A program made the position numbers and the translations under genes. DNA of 64,000 nt from Sphaerolaimus hirsutus (taxonomy: Eukaryota; Nematoda; Chromadorea; Monhysterida; Sphaerolaimidae). Each line of letters starts with the position of its first letter. Positions within the stretch are counted from its first letter, which is position 1. The notes beneath the pieces were generated by a model. The model was not told the DNA's origin. It searched no databases and saw only the letters and a list, made by a program, of their open reading frames with translations. This document shows, in pieces, positions 9,230 through 61,511 of this stretch. The stretch spans positions 6,324,001-6,388,000 of the forward strand of contig OZ038456.1 of the NCBI GenBank assembly GCA_964036195.1, in the 5' to 3' direction.

Positions 9230-9241
9230 CAATTTCACAGT

Positions 9242-33312: not shown

Positions 33313-33619
33313 ATAGTTGTTAAAACGTATTTACGTATAAAACGTATTTTATATAGGCATTTTCCTGCCATAAAGGGAGAAAAAGGTTATAAAAATGCGG
33401 AAAATAGCTAGAATATAAAAAAATTAGGCAGAAAACACATTTACGGTTGTGAATTTGTGGTGAAAATAGCAAACAAATAGCAAACAAATTTGACAATGTG
33501 ATTCTGAGTGAAAACCGGCGCTAAATTCTCAAAAATACACTACTTTAGACCCCGAAAACGTAGGTAAAGGTATTTACTCACGAGCAAAAGTAAAAACTGG
33601 GTACTCTACATATTCTGTA
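33312..33619. mobile_element. hAT-like element, family M, copy 3, interrupted by the LTR element
   Basis: TAGTTGTTAAAACGTATTTA at the left, then family M interior. It stops exactly where the Ty3/gypsy-like LTR begins (33620). The missing right half is expected beyond base 64000. Confidence 0.7.
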
Positions 33620-36107
33620 TGTCATGAATTTTCACCGGCTGCTTTTTACTCAACCAAATTCCACTATGGCAAACTGCCAAGTTTTACCGATCTCACACCT
33701 ACTCGTTGGATGAGCGACAAAGTAAGGCAACGGAAAAGCAACTACCGATTGAATTCGCAACGCACAATGGTGAATTCACCGAAGTGAATGTCACAGGTGT
33801 ACGCTACGTCAATTAAGTTAGCTTTTTAGCGAATGGCGTTTTTATCAACGCACTAGTAATTAGTTGAATGTCTAATTTACACCAAGGGGTCCGAAGTTTT
33901 TAGAAGAGATTTTATTTTAGGCGATTTTTAGACTCAGAATTCACACATTCAGATAGAACACAGGGAACACACTGAGAGCGAGTTTCTAACCAGCGGCACA
34001 AAACCTTCGAAAATACTCCAAAAAATAATTCGAAGCAATTTCGACTGAATCGACCCCTACGCTAAATTACGGTACGCTTTTATACGCAACAACATAAGCC
34101 AAGTCCAGACAACACTTCCACATACCACAAGAAGCATGCTTACAAACGATTTGACGAACACACGGAATTTGAAAACGGGCATACCTAAAATTATTCACGG
34201 CATCAGTTTACAGGATACGTCGATCAACTACACAAAAACACAAAGAATTCACGCGCCAAAAATCGGGTTGGGAACAAGAGCGAGTACAAAAATAGAAGAA
34301 TGAGAAAATGAACGAATGCGACAAGAATAAAAAGAACAGGAAAAACACACGAGATACTGTAAGAACTTGTTTTAGCGCGAAAAAAATGGCGGGCGATTCA
34401 AAATTTACTCAGCGAACTCTACCGAAAATCCAAAACCACCTCCACGAACGGGGAAACACACAGCAATTAGCGAAACAAATAGACACGCGAACAACAATCC
34501 CATCAGCAGAAATAACGTATAGTAAACGAAAATGACGTTGATATCCAAAGCGTAAGAAGCACACGTGTTATTAATGCACAACGAAAAAATGTCGTAAGTA
34601 GGATAATCCATGATGAGATTAGGATACCGGTAAGGCGAACGGAATTAACTTTCACACTGACTGTCAGGGAAAAAATAAATTACGGTACCGTTTTAAAGCC
34701 GCTTAGCGGAAATTCCACCAGAGTGATAAAATACGCACTCAAATCAGATCACATTTACACTTATCAAAATATTCGGGGAAAAAACAGGAAAAACAAGTGG
34801 CTTATTATTTCATCTCTTTGTATAATAAAGATCAACCACGAAATTTGCATAAATTCCTAAATATCCAAATGTCAAGTTATCAGCTTTCTAGGGGAAAAGG
34901 AAATACTCAAAAAAAACAACAATCAATCCAGGATTAGGTAGACAAAAAATAGCGAAGTTGCAAACGTAAAAATCAGATAAAAATTAACATACGCGAGTTT
35001 TACCTATTCCCTACCAAACCTAAAGTTAAAATGAATATGAAATCGGTATAACACTTAATAAAAATACGAACGCAAATGATTGGCAACTTAAAAGTTTATA
35101 AATTTCAATCTTTTTAGCTCAAATGCATGTTTAGCTTGCATGACTTTTTTTAGAAGTTCGAAACTGAACAAACACTAAGTGAATCCACTGCCACATGCCG
35201 AAACGCAACAGCCATTAACTACCGAAGACACTTATCTTTAGAAAATGACCACTCTCGCTGCTACACCACTCATTCTGCTACCAGAATGTTAATTAGTTAA
35301 CCACGGCTTTTGATCCCATACGCACTGTGCAAAAACCACACCCCGAAAATACCGAACTGCTCAATTCACTCAAAAATAAGTACACTTGTCACTGTATGGG
35401 TGCTTGTTTCGATGAGATCGGCGGACTGGGCTGTTCTCACAACAAGCCGAGGGAGTAGGCATTTAGACATGCGATCATGCCTGTCGAGTTAGACTCGATT
35501 CTTTTAATTACCTCTCATTTTCAACACCAATCATCACCGCACCTCTATAATCAGTGTACTTTTGTAAAATCGCTTGCAAATTAACTTTTGTTTCTTAATT
35601 CGGAAATGCAGGAATGCACAGTACATACTAGATCAATAGCCACGGCCCTCACTTCAAAAAATGCAGCGAAAGTTAGTCAAAATTCAACCTATGTGCCCTC
35701 AGTTATCACTGACCATTCACGCACTACGACACATAACTGCAGCGTCACTCTTTTTACTTAGAGAAAATAAATGAAACTTTGTTATGCAATCTAAACTGCT
35801 AATAGAAATAGAAAAAATACTTTTAAATCAAACTGTCACAACTAAAATTGTTGCCAACTCACTTGTCTCACTTTCTTAAAAAAAACTACCTAATTAACTA
35901 AAAAAAATTCTAAACAAATAAAAACAATTATTTACATCACAGCGTCAACTTTGTGTCAGATCCTCAATACCTCCAATCCTTTCCTTGGCCAAAAGAACAC
36001 ACATAACACAATGGGGCACCGGAAAAACGGAAATGCACGTTGCCACGTTGCCAACGTAGCGCAGCAATGTAGTCGAAAACGTCAACGCCACGTTCGCCCA
36101 CCGAATC
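33620..36107 (-). repeat. 3' LTR of the Ty3/gypsy-like element (at least this much)
   Basis: Starts TGTCATGAATTTTCACCGGC and is a direct repeat of 61512-64000. Identity is very high: I count about ten scattered substitutions plus one clustered difference near 34022-34036. The repeat still matches at 36107, where the other copy hits the window edge, so the full LTR is longer than 2.48 kb. It holds no recognised gene; short frames repeated in both copies reflect the duplication. Confidence 0.9.
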
Positions 36108-36583
36108 GCCCAAAACCAACGTCGAAGTAGAACTGAAATGTTTAAATTATTGTAAGCTCGGAAGTGTAAACAACCCTCTACATAAATTCATTAAGTGAAC
36201 TACATATACATTTACGTTTAAAATTTTTGAAATTTTACAATTTTTGGACACCCACTTTTGCTCACAAACTCCACCAGCCATACATTTTACCTCCCGGCTA
36301 AAATAGAAACACAGCAAAACTATTAAAAATGAAATTAAAATAAATTCCCGGGTTTTTTTTTAAGAACTATTTAAACCAATTTTAAATTTATCAACAAAAA
36401 CTACTCACTTTTTCATACTTTATTGAGAACACACAAAAAAAACTTTTGAACCGGTAAAACTCAATGAAAGTTCAATTTTTAATTCAACCGAAACTCGACT
36501 CTACTGGTAAAAGTTTTCTCAACAAAAACGACTAAAAACAAAAACAAAAACAAAAAAAAGATTCCTGTACACCTAAATTACCA
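36108..36583. other. Junction of LTR and 3' untranslated region of the helicase gene
   Basis: AT-rich, non-coding. The inner edge of the LTR must lie here but cannot be placed because the partner copy runs off the window. On the minus strand an A-rich tract followed by CCCGGG (36345-36362) is one possible polypurine-like site; this is a guess. Confidence 0.35.
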
Positions 36584-38286
36584 TTACTCCGCTTCCATCT
36601 CCTCCTCTGGCTCCAAACCTGCCAAAGTTGGAGTCACTGGCGGGGGCGGACTCTGTTCCTCTTGCTCTTGCGGTGGCGGCGACGCTCCAACTACAACAAC
36701 CTGAACAGGTTGCTGCAGCTGCTGTGCGACCACTTCCTCAGGCTGCTCCTGTTCCTGCTCATCTTCTTGCATGGGCTCAACGTCATTGGCCTCTTCCTGG
36801 ATGGCGTCCATTTGTCTTAGCATCTGCCGGTCTGGATTCATGGACTGTTGCTGTCGCTCGGCGTCCAGCTCGGTGTTCAATTCGCCCGCCATTTGAATTA
36901 ACTCATCCAATTTTTCTCCAATGATTGCATTGTTGGCCTCTTCAGTATCTGGCTCTGATTCTTGCCGTTGGCCTTCCATCGCTGGTTCCTGCTGTTGAGC
37001 ACCTTGTTCACTTTGCTCCTGTTCCACCTCCATCACTTCCTCCTCCGGAAGCAGTTTCTGTTTATGTGCTGGCACGGGCGGCGCGCGTTCAGTCTCCGGA
37101 GCCGAATCGGTTTCACTCGATCCCGACTTTGACGAACCCGACGAAGAACTAGAGGAAGAGGAAGAACTCGATGAGGGAGAGCGACGGCGACCGCAATACC
37201 GATGCCGAGACCGAGAACAACTTGCTTTTTCATCCGCGCGCGGCTGAACTTTCTCTGACTCCTCCTCCTGCTCATCTGGCGGCAACATTTGCACGTCTGG
37301 GGAATCGGGAGCGGGAGCGACGACATTAGCATCGGGCTGAGGGGACGCTCGCTGTTCACTCACATCCACCTCCTGAACTTCTTCCGGCGGCGGCGGAACC
37401 TCATTTTCTTCTTCTTGCACTGGCGGAGCGGGTTCTTGCAGATCGACCGGGGCACTTCTCCAGTGGCCCAGAAACCTAGCCAACGGGTCACTCTCCCACA
37501 AATGTCGCTCGTGGTACGCAAAAACGCGTCCCCTTCCTAATTCCACCGCCACAAAGCGCCAGAAAAATTCAGAATGCAGCACGGTAGCGGCGTTCATGAT
37601 CACGACTCTGGCCGTTTTGGCGCGAGACGTGGCCACGTTGCACCGCTCCGGCATCGCCAAAAAGCCAATTCTGTCCATCACATCGCGCTCGCGCTGCGAT
37701 GGGTGCCCAGTAGCGTCCACTCGCGGCGCGCTACCCCTCACACATGACACAATCACCACGTGCGCTTCACGAGCTTGCGCTCGATCAGCAGTGATGACTT
37801 TTTTCCGCCAAAACGCTGGGGTCGCTAAATAGCCAGGGAACCCCTCACCCCCTAATAACTGCGCCCAGCTCAATCGCACCAATTCGTCAATCACTCTTCT
37901 CTCCTGCGCTGAATAGAAACACACAACCAGCAGCGAATCAGCGCTTTCTAAATCACTCCACGGAACGACATTCTCGCCCTCGCTGTTCAGCGCCAAAATG
38001 ACAAATTGCTGCACAACGCGCACCACAATGTCCACTTCCGCCAAATTCTTAACAGACACGCCCTCGCTCATTTCGAAACCCATGTGCACGATCACAGAAG
38101 ACAAAGGCACCTGATCGGCACCGCAAGCCATGAGCGGCAAAGTATCTCGCCACTGACTGTAATCGTGGAACGCGCGCAATTGGCCATCGTACACAGCGAC
38201 AGAATTCGCTTGAATCAGTGCGTCGTGGCCGCGGAAAACAGTCTCGAGCTTCAGAATTGGGCACAGCACACCTTCCACCAACCTGT
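36584..38286 (-). pseudogene. UPF1-like SF1 helicase, 3' part (split by BEL insertion)
   Basis: This is the C-terminal portion of the helicase whose first part is 50865-53720; the 5-bp TSD marks the join. About 567 codons are host-derived; the upstream 33 codons of the open frame lie in the BEL LTR. Recognisable superfamily 1 motifs are a motif IV-like LLVVCFYSAQERRV, a motif V-like block AHVVIVSCVRG and motif VI PERCNVATSRAK, which carries the arginine finger position of UPF1/DNA2-type helicases (AAA_12 region). After about codon 310 it becomes a tail rich in Glu, Gln and Pro, with a Ser run and an RRSPSS patch, ending at TAA. The family unwinds RNA or DNA using ATP. Role in the retroelement is unknown. 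Confidence 0.85.
38282..38286. repeat. Target-site duplication of the BEL element, left copy
   Basis: CCTGT immediately before the 5' LTR equals CCTGT at 50865-50869 immediately after the 3' LTR. Five bases is the usual length for BEL/Pao elements. Removing the element and one copy restores a continuous helicase frame. Confidence 0.93.
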
Positions 38287-39579
38287 TGTGCTGACCGTAG
38301 CAAAATGAATGGATAAAGAAATACAGAGAATTGATAATTAGGCTCATATTCGCACATTTATTTATTTGCACTATTTTATTTTTCATGCACTATATTTATT
38401 TACCACGCAAATTGTATTTCCTATACTTATTACGTATCCATGGAAAATATTCGATTAGGAAAGTGTTCTATAAGTTATTGATAAGTTTATGTGAAATGTT
38501 TAGGTTAAAAGGTCAAATATGTTATTATTAGGTGTATTAATATAATGTTAGGCTCATTCAACTCGCCGTAATTTTCTGATCATGATTATATATACATTTG
38601 CATAGTTTACTTACAATTTGGAAAAGTCAAATCTTGTAATTATTTATGTGCTGCGTAATTATCTAGGCCAGCGTCCTAATAGAGAAATAGTGCCCTGTAT
38701 GCAACTAGCATTTACTGTACAAAGCCCTTCGCATAGGCATAATTGTCATAACCCTGCTCACAACTATTTATATTTACTTAATAATTATAATACCCCGCTC
38801 AATCAAATATATTATGGACCCTGCTCAATTAATATATCCATTTACCTCGAATAAGTCCCAATTTACCAATTATGAAATATACGTTTCCAGGAAGTGATTA
38901 TTATTATATCAAGTATACCCTGCTCTATTTACGTCATTAGGAACATTTGCACTACTATTTACAGTTTTCAAACCCTATTATATTAGTTCCAATGTGCGTC
39001 AATGTTTTCTGACAAATTGAAGCAAATTAGTAAATCGGCCGAGTTTGCCGACTTCGCGCCTCTCAAGATTAATAGTTTTCCATTAGCCCAATTTGTACCT
39101 GGTATTTCTTTACCATAATTATTTGAATGTATGCACGCGTAAAATAAGCCAACTGTTTCGGTCAAATGTGTCTTATTATTATATTTGTGGTTTATTTGTG
39201 CATTTGTATTAGGAAATTACTGTAACTGTTTTTCTATACATGATTTCCGTGTCTTAGCTACTTTGAAAGTTTTTACTTGAGTCTGCAGTCTGCGGACCCA
39301 CCCCAAGTGAACAAAATAAGCTAGCGATAGAAACTTCGACTAGGAAGCTCGCTAGACTTTGCGCTTTTGTAACACGCTGTATCTGATCGAAATAAAGTAC
39401 CTAAAACAATTCGAACCCCCTTTTCAACACGTAATCACGACATAAACTCAACTTGGCTGTCGACAAGTGGACGTTCGGCAACAACGGGAAATCAACCACT
39501 CTAAAGGCCGTTTCTCACTACGGTCTTGAAGCAGCCGGATTCGGTGGTAGAAGACGCTGACTTCGGTGGCTTCATCACA
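38287..39579 (+). repeat. 5' LTR of the BEL element
   Basis: TG...CA bounded, 1293 bp, the partner of 49572-50864. AATAAA at 39391-39396 is a likely polyadenylation signal, placing the R-U5 part in the last 180 bp. On its minus strand the helicase fragment frames run a short way into it, which is incidental. Confidence 0.96.
39391..39396 (+). promoter_or_regulatory. Polyadenylation signal in the BEL LTR
   Basis: AATAAA within GATCGAAATAAAGTACC; the equivalent in the 3' LTR is 50676-50681, where it would act to end the transcript. Confidence 0.55.
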
Positions 39580-39597
39580 TGGCGCAGCGAGCAGGGT
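39580..39597 (+). promoter_or_regulatory. Primer binding site of the BEL element
   Basis: TGGCGCAGCGAGCAGGGT starts directly after the LTR. TGG is the complement of the tRNA CCA end, and the position is right for minus-strand priming. I could not identify the tRNA from the sequence alone. Confidence 0.65.
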
Positions 39598-40826
39598 GAT
39601 TGCATGACATTGTGCTATCACCAAGCCGGAACGAACATTGTGCGGCAGTTGGCAGAACTTCAAAAGTCCTGCTGAACATCAATTTGGCCTTGGCTGAGCG
39701 TTGGCTGTTGATTTGCAGACAGCATTGTGCCAAAGTCACGGCACTCCTGTCTACATCCTGGGAGCGGTTCTACGCTCACGCGCGGAGGACACTGGAGTTC
39801 TGACAAGCCTGTCAGGATTTCAGGCAGCTTTCACCAGTGTTCTGGCAAGGTGCTAGACGCTGGGCGGCACCGGCATTTGACAAGGAGTCATTGTCGGACG
39901 GTGGTCAAACTTTCGCTGGACGTTCCTGGACATCTGGACGCCAGTGACCGCTCGCACGTCCTTCCTATGCCAAGGGAGGGTGACCTGACAGAGACAGGAT
40001 CGCCACAGTGCCACGCTAGTCAAAGGGCTGTTTTTTGGGCATTCGCGGAGGTCCCTCGCTCCACTGGGTAAGAGTGGACTCATACCTCGGAAGTGCAAAA
40101 GTAGGGGTATCAGTGTACAAAGGGCTGTAGCTGACAGAGGGCTGTAGCTGACAGAGGGCTGTAGCTGACAGAGAGTGGATTTGAAAACCAAGTATTAGGA
40201 TACTTGGTAGCGTGTAGGGGCTTTGCGGAGCTCCCATCAAATATACACGCTGTGCCTGCTCGGTACCATCAGATCAGACAGCACAAAAGTGCCAGAAATT
40301 CTGCATTGCACAGGCGCAATTGCAGAGCAGTGTACAGAAACACTGCCCAGAATTGGAAAGTGCACCAGAGTGCACAGAAACATGTCACAGGCGACACGGC
40401 AAGCGCAGCACTGCGCACAGCGGCACAGGAGTCGCTCAGGAAAGCAAGTGGCCGGCGTGGTCACAAGGCACACAGGCGTGCCAGAAAGAGCGCCAGAGCG
40501 CTCAGAAAGAGTGTGTACGGACCCTCTTTGGGCGCACACTGCTGGGCAAATAAATTGTTTATTGTCCAGGTGGATTTGACCGGTGTGTTGAAGTCAACGC
40601 GTGTAAACAATCACGTCAGGGGCTTTAGGAACACACCTGGTGCCAGTGCAGTAAAGGTCAACGCGTGAGAACACGTCAGGGGCCTGTAGGACTGCATTGG
40701 TATTGTGCGTGGCACAACAAATCCGTAGTGCACAGAGCACTACACAGAAAGACGCAGAGAAGCGTCACAAGCGTCACAGGCGACGCACTATAAAGAGAAT
40801 CAGTGAAGGAAAATTCATCAGCAAAA
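39598..40826 (+). other. Leader of the BEL element, with triplicated 17-bp repeat
   Basis: A 1.2-kb untranslated stretch between the primer site and the gag start. It holds three tandem GGGCTGTAGCTGACAGA units (about 40123-40172) and, from 40260 to 40560, many short GCACAGAAACA/CAGAGTGCAC-type repeats. AACGCGTG blocks recur near 40596 and 40660. The frames here are short and show no domain. It may hold packaging or translation signals, which is inference. Confidence 0.55.
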
Positions 40827-43800
40827 ATGGTTTCACCAACGGGTCACATCAGAAAGACCCTGGGGCCGGCAAAGCACAGGGTGGACAACAGATTGGCAAG
40901 AGAATATGCCAAATATGACCCAGAGTTATTTGCGGGAGCAACAAAGGAAGAGAAGAGAACAGAAATGAGAAGAGTGATTGCATCTGTCAAACAGGAGGGT
41001 GCAAAATTGGAAAGTGCAATGACTGCAGTGAGAACTCAATTTGACGCATGGAGGGATGTTGTCAAGGACATTGACGAACCCGACCAGATGGAACAAGAAC
41101 AAAAGATATACCAAGACTCATATGAGGAATACGCAAATATGTCAGACTTGGTGACACAGAAAGTTGCAGCCATGAATGTATACATCGAAGAGTTGCAAGA
41201 CATGATCCAGCAACTGAGCGGAAGTACCATGTATGAAGTCAACACAGCATTCATACAGCAGATGGCTGCACAGATGGCTTTGACAGCTCAGGGAGCTGCT
41301 CCGGGGGCCAGTTCAACCAATGCAACCACAGCAAAGAGCGTCAAATTACAGAAACTGGAAGTGGAACAGTTTACTGGGGAAATTGTCAAATTTCGATCAT
41401 GGTGGCAAATGTTCGAATCCCACATCCACAATCGGACAGATTTGGAGGACATTTCCAAGTTCTCATACTTGAGGAGTTTGCTGAAAGGCTCAGCATTTGG
41501 CATGATCAGTGGATTGAGTGTGACCGCAGAGAATTATGCACCCGCAATTGCAATGCTCAAGAAAAGATATGACCAGCCAGTTGTGGTCAGAAACACGCTG
41601 ATGAGTAATATCATGAAGCTGCGACAGGCCAGGAATACCTGTCAGGATATGAGAATTTTGTTTGATGCAATTGAAAGGCTGCTCCAGCAGTTGGAGTCAC
41701 TGGGCGAATCAGTGGAACATCCAATGCTGTTGAGCCAGCTGCAACAGAAAGTGCCACCCGAGGTTCTCAGAGAAATCCAGAAGGAACAGGGAACTGAGGA
41801 AGCCTTGACGGTGGAAAAGTTCAGAAAGCTGTTTGGCCAGCAGCTAGCGCTCAGTGAGGCTGTCCAGCACGCACAGCAAACTGAGGCTCCAGTGCAGCAA
41901 TCGCACCAAGGATTTGGAAATAATCCCCGCGCACAGCAATTCAATAATCGGTTCCAAGGCAATGGGAATCGATTCAGAGGGCCAGAGAACCCAAGGACCA
42001 GCACAGGGAGCATGTCTGTGATCCAGAATGGTCAGAGTGCACCACAGGCTGGATTCATGAATCCTGGGAGGCCGTGTGTGTTCTGCAATGACACACAGCA
42101 ATTACACTTTAATGATAAGTGTCCAAAGTTCAAAACTGCCAGAGAAAGGAGAGTGGTTTTGTCAAAGGCAGAGCGATGCCTGAGATGCCTACAGAAAGGG
42201 CATTACATGAATCAATGTCAATTTACGAGAAGTTGCTTCTATTGCAAGTCCAATAGGCACCACACTGCGGTGTGCCCAGAGAAATTTGGTGATAATGGCA
42301 GAGGAAACGCTGGACGGCAAATTCCAGCGTTTAGAGCGAATGGTCAACAGAATGGCCAGCAATCAGCAAACAATGGCAGGAAATCTGTGCCGACGGCCAG
42401 TCGACCAGCACAGAACCAACAGAGAAAGGCCACAGTGAATTGTGTCACTGTGGAAGAAGCTGGACCAGAAATGGTAGAGACAGAGACCATATCCAGCACA
42501 GTGGTTACAGAACCAAATACAAAGCAACAAAATACGTCAGTGAACCTGTCAGTAAACAGGAATATGTCAATGTTGATGACAGCCAGAACCGTGATTGAGG
42601 CTTCAGAAATGGATACAGAGATGGAGCCTGAACAGCCACCACTACAGATTCAAGCGTTCCTGGACACAGGATCCCAGGGAACGTACATGTCAGAGAAAGT
42701 GGCCAAGAAACTCAATTTGAAGAGTATAGGTGAACACCACATCCAGGTGTACACATTCGGAAATGAAAAGCCGCACTATAAAGTGGTACAGCAAGTGGAA
42801 TTCAGAATGCGGCTCAGAAATGGCCAGAAAGTTGATATGGTGGCAGATGTGGTCCCGACGTTGACCACAGAACAAGTCAAAGTGCCTGTGTCAGAACAGG
42901 ACGAAAAGTACCTGCAGAAGTACTTCCCAGATGAGAGTTACTTTGCAGACAGAATTCCCAAGGAAAAAGGGACAGAGTGCAAGTTCAAGCCAGACATTAT
43001 AGTAGGCTTGAATTATTTCTGGGACTTGATGTCCAGAAACACCAGCACCACCAGACTTCCGTCAGGATTGTATGTCATTCCATCAGAATTGGGATTGCTG
43101 ATGGGAGGTGGGCAGCTGACGAGCAACAGAAACCAATGGACCACGGATGGCGCATATCCAGTGGTGGTCAACACAATTGTGCATCAAATTCAGAGAGAAA
43201 AGTGGTACGAGGAAGCACCGTTGTCAATTGCTCCTGTACCAAATGTCAAAGATATGGACAGACTGGATACCATTGGCATAATGGACCAGCCAGACCTCGT
43301 CGAGGATGATGAGGCCATCAAGCAATTCAATGAGAGTGTACAGAGAAACCCAGATGGACGGTACTCTGTAAAATTCATGTACAAACCGAATTTGCATGAA
43401 CTCCCAGACAATAAAGCAATGGCGTTCAAGAGGTTCAGGTACCTCACCAACAGGCTCAAGAGAGACCCAGAATTATTGGAGAAAATTCAGACAATCATGA
43501 AAGCACAAGAGGAGCAAGGAGTGATTGAGAAAGTGCAAGAGGATATTATGGATGGCAGAAAGTTCCATATTTTGCCTCATCAACCAGTGATAACGCCAGA
43601 GAAAACTACCACAAAGGTCAGAGAGGTATATGATGCCTCAGCGAAACCGCCAGGCATGCCAAGCTTGAATGAGTGCATGTACCGCGGTCCAGTAATACTA
43701 CCACAGCTGGTAGGAATGCTGATGCGATTCCGGTTGCATGGAATCGCCCTGGTCGCAGACATAGAGAAAGCGTTTCTGCAGATTAGTCTGCAGGACAGTG

Positions 43801-46800
43801 ACAGAGATGTGACAAGATTTCTGTGGTACAAGGATCCCACGAAACCATCCATGGAGGACAACATTCAGATTTACAGATTTGCCAGAGTGCCATTTGGCAT
43901 AATCTGCAGCCCAGCGTTGCTGGCGCTGACAGTCAGATACCACCTGAATCAAGCTGGCACAGAGAATGCAAAGTTGATCGATGAAAATCTGTATGTGGAT
44001 AATTTGATCCTCAGTGTGGACACAGAGCAGAAAGCAATCGAATTGTACCAGGAATCCAAAGTGCTGTTCACAGAGGCACAAATGAATCTGAGAGAATGGA
44101 ACAGCAACAATAAGAGTTTTACTTGGCAATTGGCAGAGTCAGATGTGGCCAAGGAAATTGTCACAACAGTCCTAGGAATGAAATGGGACACAGAGAGCGA
44201 CCAGATGTGGCTAAAGACGCCAAAGACAGTTCAGCAATCACAGTTATCAGGAACTGACCAGAAAATCAAACTTCCCACGAAAAGGACAGTTGCAAAGGTG
44301 ACTGCGGGATGTTTTGATCCAATGGGACTCGTCAGTCCTGTTCTACTGCCAGCAAAGAGATTTTTGCAAACATTATGGCATTCGGGACCGAGTGCCAAAG
44401 AATGGGACACACCCCTGTCTGAGGAACAGACAGCAATTTGGCAGCAATTGGAGACAGAATTGCTCAAAGTTGGACAGATCAAGTTCAACAGAAATCTGAA
44501 TTATCAGAGTGGTGCAGATGCACAACTGCACATTTTCGTCGATGCCTCAGCAATGGCATACAGCGCAGCGGCATACATATGCCAGAAAACAGAGAATGAC
44601 AGCAGCACGTCAAGCCTGCTGTACTCCAGATTGAGACTAGCTCCAAAGAAACCAGAAGTGACAATTCCACGGCTGGAATTGTTAGCAATGTTGATTGGCA
44701 GCAGAATGTCAAAGTTTATTCACAAAGAGCTCAAGGACGTCAAATTCAGTCAGACAGTTGTATGGTCAGATTCAACTTGTTGTCTGAAGTGGCTAACAAC
44801 CGCGAAGCCACTAGCATGTTTTGTCAAGAACAGATTGGATGAAATCAGGAAAATTCAGAGTGAGACAGAGAACATGCACATCAGACACATCGCAGGACTG
44901 GAGAACCCAGCTGACATGGCCACAAGAGGCATGAATATGTCAGAGTTGGAGGGCAGTAACCTGTGGTGGAAAGGGCCAGAATGGCTGATGACTGGAGAGT
45001 GGCCAGAGCCGAAAGTGGAGCCAGTCACGCCAGAGGTAATGTCAGAAATCAAGAAAGAAGAGCTCAAGTTCCCAAAAGCCAGTCCAATTTACCTGGGCGC
45101 CACACAGCAAGTGGTCAGTGACCCAGATGCCAGCAATGTGCAAGTTGATGAAAGCAAGCAAAGCAACCCATTGGGAATTGAGATTCAAAGATTTTCATCA
45201 CTGACAAAGTTACTGGATGCAACAGTATACGTGATGAGATTTGTGCGACAGATGCACAAAAAGCGCAGTAGAAATGGCAGTCAGAGTGGACTGTCAGAAA
45301 TCATGGAAGGTATCTGTGGTACAATGAAACCACAAGGAATTATCAGCATTGAAGAAAGAGAGATTGCGTTGAAATACTGGATCAAAGTGACGCAACAGAA
45401 TCATTACAAAAGAGTGGCAGAGATTTTGGCAACAGGCCACAGTAAAGGCAACCAGAATGGCAAGAAAATAGCTGCAGACCAGCAGTTAATCAAATGGCTC
45501 AATGTGCAAATGCATCAGGATGGAATCCTGAAGTGCCACGGCCGAATGGAGCATGCTGACCCACAGGAGGTCACAGTGCCACTTATACTGTTGCCAGCAA
45601 CGGCTACAGTGACTCAGCTGATCGTCAGAGACCAGCATGAGAAGTTGATGCACGCAGGAGTGCAACACACATTGGCAGCGATCAGACAAAAGTACTGGAT
45701 TACACAGGGCAGACGGGTGATCTATAATGTGACCAGAACCTGCCCAACCTGTAAGAAATTGGGAGCGAAGCCGTACCAGCTTCCACCAATGCCAGATTTA
45801 CCAGAAACCAGAGTTCAGAAAGCCAGACCGTTCCAGTACACGGGCTTGGATTATCTGGGACCAGTTTGGTACAAAGTGGACAAAGATCACAGAAAAATGT
45901 GGATCCGTTTGTTCACATGCATGGTGACACGTGCAGTTCACCTGGAAAGTGTGCTGGACATGACAGCACAGGAATTCCTGAACGCAGTCAGGAGATTCAT
46001 CGCCAGGCGTGGAAAGCCTGAAGCAGTGATTTCAGACAATGCAACGCAATTCAAATTGACAGAGAAAGTGCTCAGCACAAGCACTGACAAGGCCATTAAT
46101 ACTGGAAAGGAATGGTCAGAAATGGTCAAAAGTGGAGCAGTACAGACTTACTGTTCACAGCAACAAATCCAGTGGAACATGACGACTCCCATGGCACCAT
46201 GGCAGGGAGGAGTCTATGAGAGAATGGTGGGTATCACCAAGAAACATTTCAAGGCAGCTGTGGGGCACAGAATGTTAACCCTGCAAGAATTGTTGACACT
46301 TCTGCCAGAAGTCGAGGCAGTAATCAACAGCAGACCAATCTCTTACATCTATGGTGATGTAAAGAGCCTCAGAGTGCTGACGCCAAAAGACTTCCTGACA
46401 GGGGAAGGTCAGATTGGAGCACCACAGTTTGACGCAGACAAAGATGGAGAATTTGTGCCCAGAATGGATAACGCAGCGAAACTGCAGAAATATTGGGAGA
46501 CAACCCAGCAAACTTTGGATAAGTTCTGGGACTTGTGGCATCAAGAGTATATTCCGAGCTTGAGGGAAAGAACTCAGGTGATGCACAAACATGGCAGATT
46601 GACAGCGACTCAAGAACCCAAAGTGAATGAAATTGTGCTGATTTATGAAGAAAACATGCCCAGAGGTGCATGGAAGATGGGTCGCATCGAGCAATTAGAG
46701 CCCAGCAAAGATGGACAGATTCGCTCAGCAAAAGTCAGAACTGCCAACAGAAATGTGGTCAGCAGGCCTCTCAATCAATTGTATCCGCTGGAAATCAATT

Positions 46801-49529
46801 CAAAGACAATGGATATCCCAGAGACAGCAGTGACAGTCAAAGTGGATTTACTGGACCCAGCAATTGTCCAGAAACATGTCAGAAATCAGAGCTCGAACAG
46901 AGACTCTGTACCAAACCCTGCTCAGAGGAACTCAGCATCAGATAGAGTCCTGAGGAGTGCGACAGGGAAAGCCACAGCAACCACCAGCAGTCTGATGATT
47001 GGAATGCTGTGCATGGTATTGATGCTGACAGGCATGTCAGAGTCAGCAACGCTGAGAGAAGCCGGCAAAGCTTACAGCGAAGTATTTTCCAGAACATACG
47101 TTCTAGAAACCTCGACAGTGAGGCCACCATCATTGGCAGCGCATCATGGATTGCCGCCTTTGCCTTCAGAATGGCCACAAAAATCTGTCAGAGAAATGCA
47201 GACTTATGAGAGATTCAAGGATGCAATTAAGGATCATCCTGTGGAACAGGTGATCAGTTCACAAAGCCAGAAGTATCAGATTTGCACCAGTGGAAGACAT
47301 GGACATGCGCTTACAGTTCCTGAAGAAGTGCAGTGCCATATCCCACCAAGGAATTTTGTCAAGGCAATGAAAGTTACACTTTACGCACAGAGACAGATTC
47401 CACAAAAGGAGAAAGCATATAGATGCTATATCAGAATCAAAGAGATCATCACACACACCAGTTTCTGGGGAGCAAAAGGCATTACAGGCAATTTTGAGAA
47501 ATACCAGCAAGTTGGCGTGGTAGCCTGTAACTATGCAAGAATTCACAAGATGTTCAGAGGAACACCTTTGGTGGAAATGGAGCCCAGAGTGTGGACAACC
47601 AATCAAACCTTGAATGTGGAATATTCATGGTGTTGCCATGACAAAGAGAATGTCGTCAGTAACTTCTACATGGAAGAAGGAACCGTGGCTTCACTCGATG
47701 GAAAGACTGTAATCAGCGACTTGCAAGATTTCAGCCAGTGCAGAGCCATGATGGGACATTGCAGAGACCACAATTATGGAATCACAGTGTGGGATACAGA
47801 GAACTTCAAGCATCAATGTGCATACGAGAGAATTGGCAGATTCAAATCAGAGATATCTGGCCAGACAATTATTGTGTCAAAATTGCAAGCAGCATACTCC
47901 CACAGCAACAAGACAAAGAGGCCAGTTGGCTCAGAATGTGTTCCGCGAGACACATACTACACCGATCAAGGAGGTGTATTCATCCAATTTGACAGAAGAG
48001 AAGATGTGCCTGTGGAATGGGCAATGCCAGGAAAGATAGTGGAGGCTAGAGAGTCGACAATCAGTGGAACATTGTATGCCAGATTGGACGACAGAAACTC
48101 CAAGTTTCAATTCCTGCAACATGTAGTCAGAGAAATGACTCAGGCACAATTTGCGATTGTATGGCATCAGCTATGTCAACTTCGCAAGAACCAGCTGGAC
48201 ATGTTGACTCAGCTTTTCCGCATCGATCCAACATTGGGGATTCGAGCCATGCTGGGAAGACAGGATGTTCATGCAGAATGGGCTGGAGAAGCAATTATGT
48301 TTTGGGAATGCAAGGAAGTGCAGCCATACATAATTTATCAAACAGGAAAAGTGGGAGAGACATGCTACAAATACACACCAATGAGATTGGACAAAGACGG
48401 GCCCTTGTGGTTCAAGAGCCCAGGCAGCAGAGACTTGGTGGAGAAATCACCAGAAGAGGATTGCAGCCACACCACACCGCACCTGTATAGAAATAAACAT
48501 GGACAGTGGAAGTCCGCACATGGAATGGTGCATGTCACAGAGACGCCAATTGAAATGACATGGAAAGGACAATGGCAGGCATTCACGTTTGACGCGCCTC
48601 ACCTGTTCACTAACATTGTCAACAGAGCGACCAATTTCATGGATGTCAGAGGCCAGATTCAGAGACTACAGAATTTGGAGCATGTACAGAACCAGTTGAT
48701 CGATTACACAGCAGATATGTCATTGGATCCTAGAGTGATCAGAAATTCAATAGAAGGCATTGGAGCTGGAATTGGACAGACAGCAGCAGGAATCGGCAAA
48801 GCATATGGTCACTATATATCTGGAGTGTCAAAAGGGTACACTAACTTTATGGGAGGAATGCTAAAAGGACCCTTTCAAGTGATCATCAACACAATCGCAA
48901 TGCTGCTGGGAATCACAATTCTGATAGCTGGAATCGTAGCTGCAGGATACCTATGGTACAATTGGAGAATTGCCACAGGGAAGCCAGTGATTCCACCATG
49001 TGCATACACATGCATATGGAAATGCATAGTGTGTCCATTCAAATGCATATGGCTATGCTTCAGAGCCATCAGATATACTATCAAGAAATCAACTCAGAAA
49101 GAGACCAATTATCCACAGAGGAAAGTGCGCAAGACAGAGTTGAGACCAGCAATCAAGAGGAGAGCCAGATCCAACTCAACACAATCCGTCAGATTTGCCA
49201 GGAGAGCAGAAACAGAGGACAGAATGGCAAAGTCACTATCAGCATACGTTCAGCCAGATGAAAGCTCAGCTGATGAGGGACAAGTCAGAGCCAGGAACAG
49301 AGATAGTGTTCACATGCCTGATATCCGCAAATTCACCACACGCGAACGCGCAGGAAGCGACACGGGCAACTATCTGCTTCATCATCAGGCTAGGTCGGCG
49401 TTGGCATCACCAGCAACCGGACCTGCAACCTCACGCACACCCACGACTTCGCGCACGACCACGTTCACCACAGAGGCGACTGTGGAAACGCCACTCATCA
49501 CGTTGGCGCCCACCACCACCAGCATGTGA
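40827..49529 (+). CDS. BEL/Pao gag-pol-env-like polyprotein
   Basis: One frame, 2900 codons from the first ATG (40827); it stays open upstream to a GTG at 40803. Residues below count from 40803. Gag capsid lies at about 180-350, with three zinc knuckles at 425-440, 459-472 and 478-491. Aspartic protease has DTGS at 621. RT has VADIEKAF (D986) and YVDN (1064-1067). RNase H has FVDASA (D1247) and WSDST. Integrase has an HHCC zinc site from about 1612 and catalytic D1683, D1745 and E1806, followed by a basic tail. From about 2062 a signal-peptide-like helix opens an 850-residue, cysteine-rich region with a membrane segment near 2695-2722 and a cysteine-rich cytoplasmic tail: an envelope-like glycoprotein. 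It makes the proteins for reverse transcription and integration, probably released by proteolysis. No frameshift separates the parts. Gag-pol assignment is firm; env origin is not settled. Confidence 0.96.
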   Translation: MVSPTGHIRKTLGPAKHRVDNRLAREYAKYDPELFAGATKEEKRTEMRRVIASVKQEGAKLESAMTAVRTQFDAWRDVVKDIDEPDQMEQEQKIYQDSYEEYANMSDLVTQKVAAMNVYIEELQDMIQQLSGSTMYEVNTAFIQQMAAQMALTAQGAAPGASSTNATTAKSVKLQKLEVEQFTGEIVKFRSWWQMFESHIHNRTDLEDISKFSYLRSLLKGSAFGMISGLSVTAENYAPAIAMLKKRYDQPVVVRNTLMSNIMKLRQARNTCQDMRILFDAIERLLQQLESLGESVEHPMLLSQLQQKVPPEVLREIQKEQGTEEALTVEKFRKLFGQQLALSEAVQHAQQTEAPVQQSHQGFGNNPRAQQFNNRFQGNGNRFRGPENPRTSTGSMSVIQNGQSAPQAGFMNPGRPCVFCNDTQQLHFNDKCPKFKTARERRVVLSKAERCLRCLQKGHYMNQCQFTRSCFYCKSNRHHTAVCPEKFGDNGRGNAGRQIPAFRANGQQNGQQSANNGRKSVPTASRPAQNQQRKATVNCVTVEEAGPEMVETETISSTVVTEPNTKQQNTSVNLSVNRNMSMLMTARTVIEASEMDTEMEPEQPPLQIQAFLDTGSQGTYMSEKVAKKLNLKSIGEHHIQVYTFGNEKPHYKVVQQVEFRMRLRNGQKVDMVADVVPTLTTEQVKVPVSEQDEKYLQKYFPDESYFADRIPKEKGTECKFKPDIIVGLNYFWDLMSRNTSTTRLPSGLYVIPSELGLLMGGGQLTSNRNQWTTDGAYPVVVNTIVHQIQREKWYEEAPLSIAPVPNVKDMDRLDTIGIMDQPDLVEDDEAIKQFNESVQRNPDGRYSVKFMYKPNLHELPDNKAMAFKRFRYLTNRLKRDPELLEKIQTIMKAQEEQGVIEKVQEDIMDGRKFHILPHQPVITPEKTTTKVREVYDASAKPPGMPSLNECMYRGPVILPQLVGMLMRFRLHGIALVADIEKAFLQISLQDSDRDVTRFLWYKDPTKPSMEDNIQIYRFARVPFGIICSPALLALTVRYHLNQAGTENAKLIDENLYVDNLILSVDTEQKAIELYQESKVLFTEAQMNLREWNSNNKSFTWQLAESDVAKEIVTTVLGMKWDTESDQMWLKTPKTVQQSQLSGTDQKIKLPTKRTVAKVTAGCFDPMGLVSPVLLPAKRFLQTLWHSGPSAKEWDTPLSEEQTAIWQQLETELLKVGQIKFNRNLNYQSGADAQLHIFVDASAMAYSAAAYICQKTENDSSTSSLLYSRLRLAPKKPEVTIPRLELLAMLIGSRMSKFIHKELKDVKFSQTVVWSDSTCCLKWLTTAKPLACFVKNRLDEIRKIQSETENMHIRHIAGLENPADMATRGMNMSELEGSNLWWKGPEWLMTGEWPEPKVEPVTPEVMSEIKKEELKFPKASPIYLGATQQVVSDPDASNVQVDESKQSNPLGIEIQRFSSLTKLLDATVYVMRFVRQMHKKRSRNGSQSGLSEIMEGICGTMKPQGIISIEEREIALKYWIKVTQQNHYKRVAEILATGHSKGNQNGKKIAADQQLIKWLNVQMHQDGILKCHGRMEHADPQEVTVPLILLPATATVTQLIVRDQHEKLMHAGVQHTLAAIRQKYWITQGRRVIYNVTRTCPTCKKLGAKPYQLPPMPDLPETRVQKARPFQYTGLDYLGPVWYKVDKDHRKMWIRLFTCMVTRAVHLESVLDMTAQEFLNAVRRFIARRGKPEAVISDNATQFKLTEKVLSTSTDKAINTGKEWSEMVKSGAVQTYCSQQQIQWNMTTPMAPWQGGVYERMVGITKKHFKAAVGHRMLTLQELLTLLPEVEAVINSRPISYIYGDVKSLRVLTPKDFLTGEGQIGAPQFDADKDGEFVPRMDNAAKLQKYWETTQQTLDKFWDLWHQEYIPSLRERTQVMHKHGRLTATQEPKVNEIVLIYEENMPRGAWKMGRIEQLEPSKDGQIRSAKVRTANRNVVSRPLNQLYPLEINSKTMDIPETAVTVKVDLLDPAIVQKHVRNQSSNRDSVPNPAQRNSASDRVLRSATGKATATTSSLMIGMLCMVLMLTGMSESATLREAGKAYSEVFSRTYVLETSTVRPPSLAAHHGLPPLPSEWPQKSVREMQTYERFKDAIKDHPVEQVISSQSQKYQICTSGRHGHALTVPEEVQCHIPPRNFVKAMKVTLYAQRQIPQKEKAYRCYIRIKEIITHTSFWGAKGITGNFEKYQQVGVVACNYARIHKMFRGTPLVEMEPRVWTTNQTLNVEYSWCCHDKENVVSNFYMEEGTVASLDGKTVISDLQDFSQCRAMMGHCRDHNYGITVWDTENFKHQCAYERIGRFKSEISGQTIIVSKLQAAYSHSNKTKRPVGSECVPRDTYYTDQGGVFIQFDRREDVPVEWAMPGKIVEARESTISGTLYARLDDRNSKFQFLQHVVREMTQAQFAIVWHQLCQLRKNQLDMLTQLFRIDPTLGIRAMLGRQDVHAEWAGEAIMFWECKEVQPYIIYQTGKVGETCYKYTPMRLDKDGPLWFKSPGSRDLVEKSPEEDCSHTTPHLYRNKHGQWKSAHGMVHVTETPIEMTWKGQWQAFTFDAPHLFTNIVNRATNFMDVRGQIQRLQNLEHVQNQLIDYTADMSLDPRVIRNSIEGIGAGIGQTAAGIGKAYGHYISGVSKGYTNFMGGMLKGPFQVIINTIAMLLGITILIAGIVAAGYLWYNWRIATGKPVIPPCAYTCIWKCIVCPFKCIWLCFRAIRYTIKKSTQKETNYPQRKVRKTELRPAIKRRARSNSTQSVRFARRAETEDRMAKSLSAYVQPDESSADEGQVRARNRDSVHMPDIRKFTTRERAGSDTGNYLLHHQARSALASPATGPATSRTPTTSRTTTFTTEATVETPLITLAPTTTSM

Positions 49530-49571
49530 CGTTGCTGCAACAACGGAGTGCAGCAACTCTTCCGCCCGGAG

Positions 49572-50864
49572 TGTGCTGACCGTAGCAAAATGAATGGATA
49601 AAGAAATACAGAGAATTGATAATTAGGCTCATATTCGCACATTTATTTATTTGCACTATTTTATTTTTCATGCACTATATTTATTTACCACGCAAATTGT
49701 ATTTCCTATACTTATTACGTATCCATGGAAAATATTCGATTAGGAAAGTGTTCTATAAGTTATTGATAAGTTTATGTGAAATGTTTAGGTTAAAAGGTCA
49801 AATATGTTATTATTAGGTGTATTAATATAATGTTAGGCTCATTCAACTCGCCGTAATTTTCTGATCATGATTATATATACATTTGCATAGTTTACTTACA
49901 ATTTGGAAAAGTCAAATCTTGTAATTATTTATGTGCTGCGTAATTATCTAGGCCAGCGTCCTAATAGAGAAATAGTGCCCTGTATGCAACTAGCATTTAC
50001 TGTACAAAGCCCTTCGCATAGGCATAATTGTCATAACCCTGCTCACAACTATTTATATTTACTTAATAATTATAATACCCCGCTCAATCAAATATATTAT
50101 GGACCCTGCTCAATTAATATATCCATTTACCTCGAATAAGTCCCAATTTACCAATTATGAAATATACGTTTCCAGGAAGTGATTATTATTATATCGAGTA
50201 TACCCTGCTCTATTTACGTCATTAGGAACATTTGCACTACTATTTACAGTTTTCAAACCCTATTATATTAGTTCCAATGTGCGTCAATGTTTTCTGACAA
50301 ATTGAAGCAAATTAGTAAATCGGCCGAGTTTGCCGACTTCGCGCCTCTCAAGATTAATAGTTTTCCATTAGCCCAATTTGTACCTGGTATTTCTTTACCA
50401 TAATTATTTGAATGTATGCACGCGTAAAATAAGCCAACTGTTTCGGTCAAATGTGTCTTATTATTATATTTGTGGTTTATTTGTGCATTTGTATTAGGAA
50501 ATTACTGTAACTGTTTTTCTATACATGATTTCCGTGTCTTAGCTACTTTGAAAGTTTTTACTTGAGTCTGCAGTCTGCGGACCCACCCCAAGTGAACAAA
50601 ATAAGCTAGCGATAGAAACTTCGACTAGGAAGCTCGCTAGACTTTGCGCTTTTGTAACACGCTGTATCTGATCGAAATAAAGTACCTAAAACAATTCGAA
50701 CCCCCTTTTCAACACGTAATCACGACATAAACTCAACTTGGCTGTCGACAAGTGGACGTTTGGCAACAACGGGAAATCAACCACTCTAAAGGCCGTTTCT
50801 CACTACGGTCTTGAAGCAGCCGGATTCGGTGGTAGAAGACGCTGACTTCGGTGGCTTCATCACA
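49572..50864 (+). repeat. 3' LTR of the BEL element
   Basis: Direct copy of 38287-39579 with two differences. It starts 42 bp after the stop codon of the polyprotein. The sequence just upstream (GCAGCAACTCTTCCGCCCGG) has no obvious polypurine tract, which is odd for an otherwise intact element. Confidence 0.96.
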
Positions 50865-50869
50865 CCTGT
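50865..50869. repeat. Target-site duplication of the BEL element, right copy
   Basis: CCTGT, identical to 38282-38286. Confidence 0.93.
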
Positions 50870-53720
50870 TGATCAGCGATGGATCAGGTTTCAGGATCGG
50901 AGCAATCCAGGAATGCGGCCTGACCATTCGGGTCAACTGCTTGCTATCGCCAAACAAAAGCACCAAGCCATTGTGGGGGAGTCGAGCGTTTGAAACAGCG
51001 CCAAAAATGGCAGTTTCATCCGCCAGAGACGCCTCGTCCACAAACACCGCGGCATATTTCAAAACTTGCAGTCGCTTGTCGCGCGATGAATCCAAGGTCA
51101 CATGGACTTGGCCGGGCTGCAGCACATTCAACACCACCTTATGCAACCTAGTAGCCACCCTAACGAGGCGTCGCATTTCGCGCTTGTAAATTTTGCCCCA
51201 CGTCTGGTTGTCATCGACAAAACCAGCCGCGGCCCCCCACGCCTGCACGCCTTCCTCTTGGCCATCGTCCAGCGGCACCAAATCATCCTCGTCGTCTTCG
51301 TCGATGGACAAACGAACCAAAGGCAACTGCGACCAAATGGCTTCGAAAATGTCGGCGGGATGCTGATTGTTCGCGATGATCTCGTTCAAAGTGTCACAAA
51401 TATGGCGTTGAGCGGTAAAGCGTTCATAAGCAGTTAGCCAGTGGTCATTCAATCGAATCACATGCACAGGCATATTTTGCGCGATCAAATTCAGCAGCGG
51501 CAATTGCTGGAGCGTCATATCGACGTAGCGATCGTCAACTTCCAACAACGGACTCAGCACGCGAACCGCGAAAGCAGCGCGCACCTGACAAAAACGCGCA
51601 TAGCCAGGTGTTTGGAAATTCGGCTTGTCATCCATCACAGTCCACCTCTCCCTACTACGCAGCAAAACTTCCACGACCGTTTCCAAATTAGGCAGACCAA
51701 TGTTTGCCAAACTTTGCAACGATCGTCTAGCAGACTCATCAGCGGCCGAATTCACACTGCAGGTAATCATTGTGGAGTGGTAAAGCGCATTGTTGTTTGC
51801 ATCAGAGGGCAATTCCCTCTTCAGCGGGTTTGGCGGGCCATTTTTCTCAGTAAACTTAAACGCAACCGCGTACGCACACTGACTTTGCACAGTCGTTTTA
51901 CCGGAACCGAATGGTGAATCACACATCAGCAATAGCGGCGCAGTTTTTCGCACAGACTTGATAACTGACGCAATCACACGCCCCTGCCCCTCCTGCGGCC
52001 GAAAATCACCCTGCTGCGCTTGCAATAAATCTTCGCATGTGCCTCTGCGCACCTCCGCATACAATCCATCAGATTCAATTTTTTCGAGCGTGCGCTGCCA
52101 ATCAGTCTCAACTTGGTTCAACTGCTTGTGCAGCACTACCGCCATTTTGACCTGGTCTTCCACAGCGAGCAGTCCGGTGTTGCTCTCGGTTGGCCGGTAA
52201 CCACTAGGGCCCATTATGCACAACCGCTCCAAAATTTCCATGCGGCCATTGTAGCTAGGCGACAAAGCGGAACCGCGCACCATATAATCGCAATTAGGCA
52301 TTAAATGCGGCGACAGCGCCTGCGGCACCAACACATCCGGTTTGGCAACTAGCTGCACCGCCTCGGCAGTGATGTCGGCGCTGACCGTGCGTAAACTTAT
52401 TTGCGGGCGGCCAGTCAGAGCACGCTCTTCCCCCCGGGGATCAGCTTCGACGATTTGTATCGACGACATAGGTGAAGTGAAATTCAACATGTAGCCCTGC
52501 GCCTTATTCCTGTGCCACTCGGCCGTGTCGCGCATCGCAGCGGCTGGATTTAAATGCACGCGTTCCCACCTAATTATCGCAATTAATCCCCGCGGACCAT
52601 TTTGCCAAGTCACCTGTGCACGCACAGCTTTCGCCCTAGTCGCAGTGTATCGCAAATGCGCTTCGTGACACACGTTAGCAGCGGCCAAAAAGATGGAACG
52701 GAGCTGCAGCTGAGAAGTGAGGTAATTTCTATTCATTTCACCCTTCCACTCCATACCAGCCTCAATTTGCCGCGCCAAAAAAATACGCACGCCATACGCA
52801 TGACCCCAATAAAAGTTGTTAACTTTGCCGGCGTCGTCAAAAGCGTGATACTCTACATGCGCCACACCTAATTGTCCGGCGTGCGGGTGTATATCACTTT
52901 CCATGACATTTTCGCTGTGTGCAAAAATCAACTTTTCAGGGCCCGGATCCCGCTCGTCGGCGCCTTTGAAGGGGGGTGCACTAATATACCGCGAAGGGGT
53001 GAACGCTGCCCTCAAACGTAAATATCTCCACTTGGCCGGATAAGGATGATATCCTTCGCGATTTTCCTGTCCTCTCTGTGAAATTTCCGACGCTGGCTCA
53101 TCGACGGAGAGGTCAACCTGTCCTTGCGAAACAATGACAACAGGGCGGCCCAAAAACAATGGCATTTGAGCGTCATTTTTCATAATAGTGACGCCTCGCA
53201 ATTCCCAATACTTTGGATCGGCGCTAACCCTACTGATGCCAGTCGCGACAAAATGCACGCCGTGGCGGACAAGCGGCAAAAACATGTCGTAAGCTTCGTT
53301 AGCCTCGCGATATTCCCTCAAAATTTTCTGTACCGACCGCTCGCGAGCGCGCTCCGCCTTGTTGACCGAATAAGTGAAAAATGGATAAGCCCTTTCCGCT
53401 TCCGACCACTCCGGATAACTTTCCAAAAGCGCCTGCGCATCGCCGTCGAAACGAATGTGACATTGATAACTGGTAGGACGCTGCTCGTGGCCGACGTGGA
53501 CTCGATCCACTATTCCCGACAACTTTTTGTTGATGACAAATTCAGGACAAATCGATCAAGCGTTTCGAGGGGGATTATAGGGCAGCGGCGGAATAGTATC
53601 ACCGCCCTGTTTTCCATGAGAAGTCCACGATTTGAGCGGCGCCTTAGCTATGCGCCCGCCACGGTACGAACTGGAACTCGCTCCATACCCACCCATGGGT
53701 ACGCCACCCGAACTAGTCAT
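50865..53720 (-). pseudogene. UPF1-like SF1 helicase, 5' part (broken by TGA and by BEL insertion)
   Basis: The likely ATG is at 53718-53720, opening a Gly/Ser-rich leader of 54 codons. An in-frame TGA at 53556-53558 then interrupts, and the frame continues unshifted to the BEL insertion at 50865. Counting from the TTG at 53522, Walker A GSGKTT is at 539-544, the Walker B-type VDEAS at 828-832 and the motif III-type GDSKQL at 858-863. These are hallmarks of UPF1/DNA2-type superfamily 1 helicases (AAA_11 region). The first 480 residues match nothing I recognise. The BEL element sits between motif III and the motif IV-VI half at 36584-38286. It lies 546 bp downstream of the integrase end, same strand, inside the LTRs, so it belongs to the retroelement, where env usually sits. 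Replication-related, RNA-processing or host-defence roles are all speculative. Confidence 0.88.
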
Positions 53721-54266
53721 CTTTCACACTTCAAAGTAGAGCACCGGAAAACACAACTTATTGCTACTTAGAATGCGCCACCCAGAATGTCGGCACCGAA
53801 ATGCACGAAGGTCTGAGCGACACCCTAATCGAAAAGTTGCGAATTATTTTCAACGCACTACGTTGAACGTATTGTGCCAAAAATAATTTTTATTTTGTTG
53901 CGAAATGGGCGAAAATGAGAATGAAATTAAAGAACGAATTTAGAACGAAATAAATGCGATGGTATGAATAACTAGTGAATTAAACTGCGACGATAATTAG
54001 AAACGAACAACTAATAACACTTATAAACTCTTATAAAATTTTCACGCTTTACCTTTTACATAAAAAAACAACAACTTTTCACTTCAAAATTACCTCGCAC
54101 ACAACCAAAAATACAAAAAATTGCAACCCCGAACTCACCACGAACTGACGGCCAGAATTAAACGCGAATAATCCAAATAAAAATGAAAATAAATTTTAAT
54201 TGAATTTTTGAACGAAATAATTGACTTGAAGCACTTTAGGTTGAAGAGCAGAAAATCTCAGGGTTT
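53721..54266. other. Spacer between integrase and helicase genes
   Basis: AT-rich, non-coding. It may carry a splice acceptor or promoter for the helicase message, but nothing specific is visible. Confidence 0.4.
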
Positions 54267-57056: not shown

Positions 57057-57059
57057 CTG

Positions 57060-61451: not shown

Positions 61452-61493
61452 ACGGTGATCAGTCGCCTGAACTCACTGGGAATATTAAACAAA

Positions 61494-61509: not shown

Positions 61510-61511
61510 GT

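Follow-up and report, generated by a model that had tools for sequence, protein, structure and literature searches.

Multi-copy Ty3/gypsy retrotransposons of the nematode Sphaerolaimus hirsutus with a predicted UPF1/Sen1-type helicase gene in the env position

Introduction

Can a long terminal repeat (LTR) retrotransposon own a helicase? The question is raised by a stretch of 64,000 nucleotides from the nematode Sphaerolaimus hirsutus (assembly GCA_964036195.1, contig OZ038456.1, positions 6,324,001 to 6,388,000; hereafter the window, in which all coordinates are counted from the first base), where a Ty3/gypsy element carries, in the env position, an open reading frame (ORF) with the motifs of a UPF1-like superfamily 1 (SF1) helicase. 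LTR elements are thought to depend on strand displacement by reverse transcriptase and on host helicases, and neither LTR retrotransposons nor retroviruses are known to encode such a helicase as a regular gene. Here, the helicase is found in the same place in a high number of copies and in three gypsy families, its motifs are conserved, its ratio of nonsynonymous to synonymous divergence (dN/dS) is low and it has moved recently. It appears from these comparisons to be a standing, selected gene of a multi-copy gypsy lineage and not the product of a single capture.

Results

The helicase ORF is read on the minus strand from an ATG at 53718-53720 to its end at 36584, between the integrase and the 3' LTR and inside one LTR pair. 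Its start in the window (53556-53720, the ATG and 53 codons) runs into an in-frame stop at 53556-53558, 54 codons after the ATG and directly ahead of the long open part; this start is open in other copies. The N part (50865-53555) begins with about 540 residues that match no Pfam family, followed by motifs I, II and III, the RecA1 half, while the C part (36584-38281, including the stop codon) holds motifs IV to VI, covered by AAA_12, and then an acidic tail of 295 residues rich in E, P, Q and S. All the motifs that a first-pass annotation had named on the minus strand in the interval from integrase to 3' LTR were located, with GSGKTT at 51891-51908, VDEAS at 51027-51041, GDSKQL at 50934-50951, LLVVCFYSAQ at 37904-37933, AHVVIVSCVRG within 37733-37780 and PERCNVATSRAK at 37616-37651. 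The two parts amount to 897 and 565 stop-free codons respectively, against 16-52 and 12-27 stops in their five other reading frames, an openness above chance. The annotation had described a helicase in two parts, and both are real; the BEL/Pao element that separates them, described below, was missing from it.

The profile comparison that it had proposed came out in favour of one domain only: AAA_12 matches the C part at E 2.5e-19 (70 bits against a cut-off of 27; 3.5e-19 on the trimmed sequence), whereas AAA_11 on the N part, at 2.4e-5 and 24.7 bits, falls short of its cut-off of 27. The helicase of a second gypsy family of the same genome, family B, gives a similar picture, with AAA_12 above its cut-off at 92.9 bits and AAA_11 below it at 19.6 of 27 bits. 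A UPF1-type CH zinc domain was not found, the N-terminal half being without any Pfam match at E values up to 10. The virus-type SF1 helicase known from TRAS elements was rejected as an identity, as Viral_helicase1 (PF01443) is absent in the window's family, family A, and in family B reaches only 0.058, with 13.6 bits of the 21 needed. Two structure predictions were of low confidence, with mean predicted local distance difference test scores (pLDDT) of 33.5 and 34.9. The first 540 or so residues, while without a known domain, are nevertheless conserved, families A and B being 39-40% identical over residues 11-897. Such a large region, together with the acidic E/P/Q/S-rich tail, would suit a protein with a structural or particle role, for instance in packaging, in which the ATPase is incidental. 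We consider this role unlikely, however, as the residues needed to bind and hydrolyse ATP are retained in two of the families.

To what extent the helicase belongs to the element was read from the window's own assembly (348,482,957 bases in 762 contigs), in which the matches scored were 150 of 454 candidates for AAA_12, 51 of 569 for the N part, 150 of 438 for the C part, 40 of 318 for integrase DNA and 64 of 2775 for integrase protein; copy numbers are therefore lower bounds and all tallies refer to scored matches. Frames of 1516-1521 residues surround 49 of the 51 N-part matches, the remainder being the window (940) and one copy of 1069, and the copies elsewhere are open and 97-98% identical to the window, running through both the window's stop and the BEL insertion site. 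The integrase likewise lies in a 943-residue frame in 61 of 64 matches (exceptions: the window, 699, and two others, 748 and 729), with in-match stop codons listed for six of the 64. Family A accounts for 116 of the 150 C-part matches, at 73-100% identity and with five of them partial or degraded, and at all 19 of its loci that were read (L029-L047) the integrase end, helicase N part and helicase C part are consecutive, the N and C parts being contiguous. The other 34 C-part matches form family C, at 50-51% identity and mostly in 1337-residue frames; in three of three copies checked the integrase, 54% identical, sits at the expected upstream place. Family B comprises the AAA_12 matches other than L008 and L009; these score almost identically, and their frames reach up to 1400 residues, a length of 1332 being frequent. 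Its loci L010-L015 are 43% identical to the window over residues 402-897 and 6-274, and in all four copies checked (on C7, C9, C6 and C2) a single strand carries gag-protease, reverse transcriptase, integrase and helicase in collinear order. Overall, the helicases of families B and C are 39-51% identical to that of the window.

These comparisons bear directly on the possibility that a single-copy host helicase was caught once, or that a gypsy element came to lie beside a host gene. In the window alone this might have seemed reasonable, given the 0.5-kb spacer that separates the helicase from pol and the differing base composition at third codon positions. Against it stand the high copy number and the constant place of the gene at all 19 loci read and across three families, while two other UPF1-like places in the genome, L008 and L009, show no more than about 30% identity along stretches of 80-92 residues. 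A one-off capture is refuted by the copy number and the constant post-integrase place, and the whole class of host-gene explanations is in our judgement highly improbable; the first-pass annotation's view of the helicase as a gene of the element is thus upheld across copies of family A and extended to two further gypsy families. A retrocopy was also rejected, the sense side past the helicase stop having no poly-A.

Loss of the helicase is rare among the scored copies. Starting from the integrase protein, 59 of 64 copies have a same-strand helicase no more than 5 kb away; the remaining five are the window itself (split), a fragment on C2, two contig ends (C140 and C52) and a copy on C4 (C4:21283819) that has lost at least most of the helicase, so that the absence of the gene from other copies, which the annotation had named as a ground for abandoning its proposal, is confined to one loss. 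With integrase DNA, 33 of 40 copies have a helicase equally close and likewise on their own strand, two have it at 10.8 and 16.8 kb (the second being the window) and five lie outside the helicase match lists. Three of these five hold helicase pieces (C2:10517781, C15:1865943 and C13:1529096), one (C140) is at a contig end, and in the C4 copy, at C4:21279680-21283849, the integrase is open and LTR sequence occupies the place of the helicase, at least most of which is lost. The LTR pairs of three copies with an open helicase, on C2, C15 and C1, show one difference each in about 2,640 positions; their helicase frames are 1517, 1519 and 1521 residues long and their target repeats GTTG, TAAG and CCAG. 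Because these three helicase-bearing copies have near-identical LTRs and target repeats of their own, the helicase moves with the element and has done so recently.

Divergence among copies was evaluated by the Nei-Gojobori method with Jukes-Cantor correction. For the N part, 20 copies (190 pairs) give dS 0.0367, dN 0.0028 and dN/dS 0.077, and the window against the 19 others gives 0.070; the corresponding ratios for the C core are 0.082 and 0.13, and that for the C-terminal part of the integrase is 0.055 in 19 copies, with L037 left out. When copies were chosen by their integrase DNA, three of six stretches could be used (L054 was left out for a gap, L057 and L059 for want of a helicase match there), and the helicase ratio of these three against the 19 was 0.092-0.110. 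Among themselves and with the window they give 0.112, two of the three carrying a stop codon in the stretch; L056 and L058 were kept despite a stop codon, which was skipped. The non-coding spacer between integrase and helicase (53721-54266, minus strand, 546 bases), which is 89.0-91.0% identical to 19 other copies, differs from them by 26-37 mismatches in about 545 bases, a divergence of about 0.05-0.07. The window differs from the others by a dS of 0.149 and a dN of 0.0105, so that dN lies about five- to six-fold below spacer divergence. The low dN/dS anticipated by the annotation is therefore borne out, and the helicase shows, as far as divergence among copies can indicate, the mark of protein-level selection. 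That the spacer is less diverged than synonymous sites possibly reflects regulatory constraint or a bias in dS.

Outside the nematode genome the relatives are distant. A motif-pattern search of prokaryote genomes returned seven loci, one of which, the bacterial L005, is a real relative (tblastn E 2e-7), the other six being taken as chance matches. The alignment of L005 with the window helicase spans motifs I, II, III and IV to VI, and the GxGKT P-loop, DEA, the Q of motif III, the arginine of motif IV and RCNVATSRAK all align with this bacterial UPF1/Dna2-type helicase. On its own, L005 matches the structures of UPF1 (2e-31), Dna2, SMUBP-2 and Sen1, and a profile of the two C-terminal domains, which leans on L005, ranks UPF1 first at 4.4e-17. 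Taken alone, the open family B protein scores 1.1e-6 against 8ftm ('5'-3' RNA helicase-like protein') and 0.02 against UPF1. The structure match does not state the identity of 8ftm, which we take to be Sen1/senataxin of the fungus Chaetomium, a helicase of RNA-DNA hybrids. The predicted helicase may accordingly belong to either the Sen1 or the UPF1 subfamily. Searches of the PDB with the window's N and C parts gave no match, and neither did PHROGs for the helicase, nor viral contigs for the N part, C part, integrase or motif patterns. Protein database searches scored 7995 candidates for the N part and 7991 for the C part, none of them with an E value of 0.001 or below; they required shared five-residue words and so do not prove absence. 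Two further candidates were set aside: PADLOC MkoA (3.4e-13) covers the helicase C part only and was read as a shared AAA_12 domain, and NCBIfam IGHMBP2 (7.4e-4) lies far under its cut-off.

The element that houses the helicase in the window runs on the minus strand from 33620 to 159 bases beyond the window end and measures 17,957 bases, about 18 kb, once the BEL insertion is subtracted. Its assignment to Ty3/gypsy is based on Pfam domains and on a homology list showing gypsy-type domain sets; the pol order of reverse transcriptase, RNase H and integrase is found both here and in family B. The 3' LTR (33620-36266, minus strand, 2647 bp) was defined by its identity to the 5' LTR, which an LTR comparison places at 61512-64000 (minus strand, the first 2489 bases) and whose final 159 bases, past the window (L025 1-159), match the 3' LTR at 100%. 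Across the 2489 aligned bases the two are 99.4% identical, with 13 substitutions and one gap. The pair starts with TG, ends with CA and is flanked by a short target repeat, one side of the 4-bp duplication being TGTA at 33616-33619 and the other following base 159 of L025, immediately outside the window. Both LTRs contain a 114-residue frame opposite to the element strand (34516-34860 and 62409-62753, plus strand) without a Pfam match. Directly inside the 5' LTR lies a primer-binding-site-like ACTGGTAGCAGCGAGTGG... (61486-61511, minus strand), assigned by eye. The gag-protease ORF with the start of the reverse transcriptase occupies 57060-61472 (minus strand); its PNMA-type gag match is only at cut-off (1.4e-5, 25.1 bits against 25), and the zinc knuckle and aspartyl protease matches are below theirs. 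Hydrophobic, membrane-like segments at 58614-58886 (minus strand), in the zinc knuckle/protease interval of this ORF, are at an unusual site for a membrane stretch. The reverse transcriptase (56354-57088, minus strand; RVT_1 2.5e-26) is in a frame differing from its neighbours in the window copy, at a place where the 943-residue frame is open in most other scored copies, and RNase H and integrase at the pol end follow at 54267-56366 (minus strand; RT_RNaseH 5.1e-17, Integrase_H2C2 8.1e-16, rve 2.2e-9).

The window copy itself is dead: its helicase is split and stopped, and its pol has two frame breaks, near 57,060-57,088 and 56,354-56,366. The split is due to a nested element of 12.6 kb on the plus strand that belongs to BEL/Pao, a group known from animals (38287-50864; LTRs 38287-39579 and 49572-50864), bordered by the 5-bp target repeat CCTGT at 38282-38286 and again at 50865-50869; by arithmetic, the helicase parts on its two sides share one frame. 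Its LTRs are 1293 bp long and 99.85% identical, with two differing positions, and a single open frame (40794-49529) encodes gag, protease, reverse transcriptase, integrase and an env-like glycoprotein. The class marks found are Pao peptidase A17 (PF05380, 2e-46), the C-terminal domain of BEL integrases (DUF5641, 2.1e-21), the LTRs and the 5-bp target repeat. The helicase as a part of this BEL element was ruled out, as it lies on the opposite strand and outside the BEL LTRs and the insertion is absent from 19 of 19 other family A loci read. The env-like region of this young element gives an E value of 4.6e-17 against PF24664, the fusion glycoprotein of Monjiviricetes (chuvirus-type).

Elsewhere in the window, a 289-residue frame at 9230-10099 (plus strand) was judged by eye to be an old BEL-type reverse transcriptase fragment, and 11088-11566 and 16134-17333 are taken up by a tandem array of short period and by repeated units rich in GCGCCAATGGCGCCA. 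No tRNA (bacterial code) and no Rfam match at gathering score were found in the window.

Discussion

What might such a gene do for its element? The jobs suggested by the first-pass annotation, in reverse transcription, RNA export or escape from RNA decay, are conjectural. We give a probability of about 0.5 to the reading that the helicase is a standing element gene under protein-level selection whose product is likely an ATP-driven motor that unwinds the long RNA or the RNA-DNA hybrids of the element during replication. The protein would be translated from its own ATG after pol, would hydrolyse ATP and unwind nucleic acid, and might aid reverse transcription of the 18-kb element. As a rule, large RNA genomes encode a helicase, and a role in replication is favoured both for this reason and because the nearest solved relative is of Sen1 type, if our identification of 8ftm holds. 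It is a more tentative suggestion that a lineage of very long gypsy elements replicates with a polymerase together with a UPF1/Sen1-type helicase of its own, in the manner of large RNA viruses, and has in this way outgrown the usual size of LTR elements.

Host relatives of the UPF1/Sen1/MOV10 kind act in RNA decay and silencing, and the fold of the putative helicase is of that kind. A somewhat doubtful alternative, then, is that the protein likely binds or unwinds the RNA of the element and spares it from host silencing or nonsense-mediated decay, under equally strong selection. A 3' ORF behind a long pol frame would resemble a decay target, the virus-derived SF1 helicases of TRAS long interspersed nuclear elements (LINEs) are reported to suppress silencing weakly in plants (PMC5563155, PMC6338049), and the genomic data (copies, place and dN/dS) fit this alternative as well as they fit a replication role. 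The sequence, however, gives no pointer to a host partner, and the N-terminal half has neither a UPF1-type CH domain nor any other Pfam domain.

Several of our own observations weigh against a selected helicase with a replication role. The set of 20 copies used for dN/dS was ranked by protein score, which favours low dN, and dN/dS may look too low because spacer divergence is smaller than dS. Deletion derivatives exist, one being known, the C4 copy with an open integrase. AAA_11 is under its cut-off in both families tested, A and B, motifs IV and V have unusual letters (VFRGH, QAREA), and G+C at third codon positions (GC3) is 0.57 in the helicase and 0.40-0.45 in pol. Finally, purifying selection, as it appears here, would fit a replication role and an anti-host role equally well.

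The retention of the helicase through at least three families, with a dN/dS near that of the integrase, offers a testable case either that long retroelement genomes benefit from a helicase or that they require some means of countering RNA decay or silencing. UPF1, MOV10 and senataxin have mostly been discussed as restrictors or regulators of retroelements, a view that a relative owned by a retroelement would reverse.

In the open-access PMC literature, which leaves subscription papers and preprints largely outside, we recognised no report in which an LTR retrotransposon carries a helicase gene of the UPF1/Sen1 type. Related arrangements are known. Insect TRAS and Jockey elements carry a virus-derived SF1 helicase, and in Diptera and Hymenoptera SF1 helicase domains are also fused to LTR-retrotransposon proteins (PMC5563155, PMC6338049). 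These share with the window lineage a retrotransposon setting and a full SF1 motif set, but as described there theirs are alphavirus-like (Viral_helicase1, PF01443) and fused into or beside LINE or LTR proteins (PMC5563155, PMC6338049), whereas the best match of the window lineage is AAA_12 and its helicase has an ORF to itself, about 1,500 codons long and placed after the integrase. The LTR retrotransposons of bdelloid rotifers carry an enzymatic ORF3, encoding a GDSL esterase or a DEDDy exonuclease, and thus likewise have a non-envelope enzyme gene in the env position across several families, although a helicase is not among the ORF3 types described in the portion of the report used here (PMC5408684). 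Burro of planarians and Ogre of plants are comparable in that they, too, are gypsy elements of very great length that have long LTRs and carry additional domains, but the extras that the consulted text names are MATH, BIR, ankyrin, midasin-like and env-like, with no UPF1/Sen1-type helicase among them (PMC6431247). With the cellular UPF1, Sen1, IGHMBP2 and Dna2 the window lineage has in common the SF1 core, AAA_12 and the order of motifs I to VI, and family B matches both 8ftm and UPF1 structures; it differs from them in its distance (E 1e-6 at best), in an N-terminal half without a match, and in being encoded by a retrotransposon.

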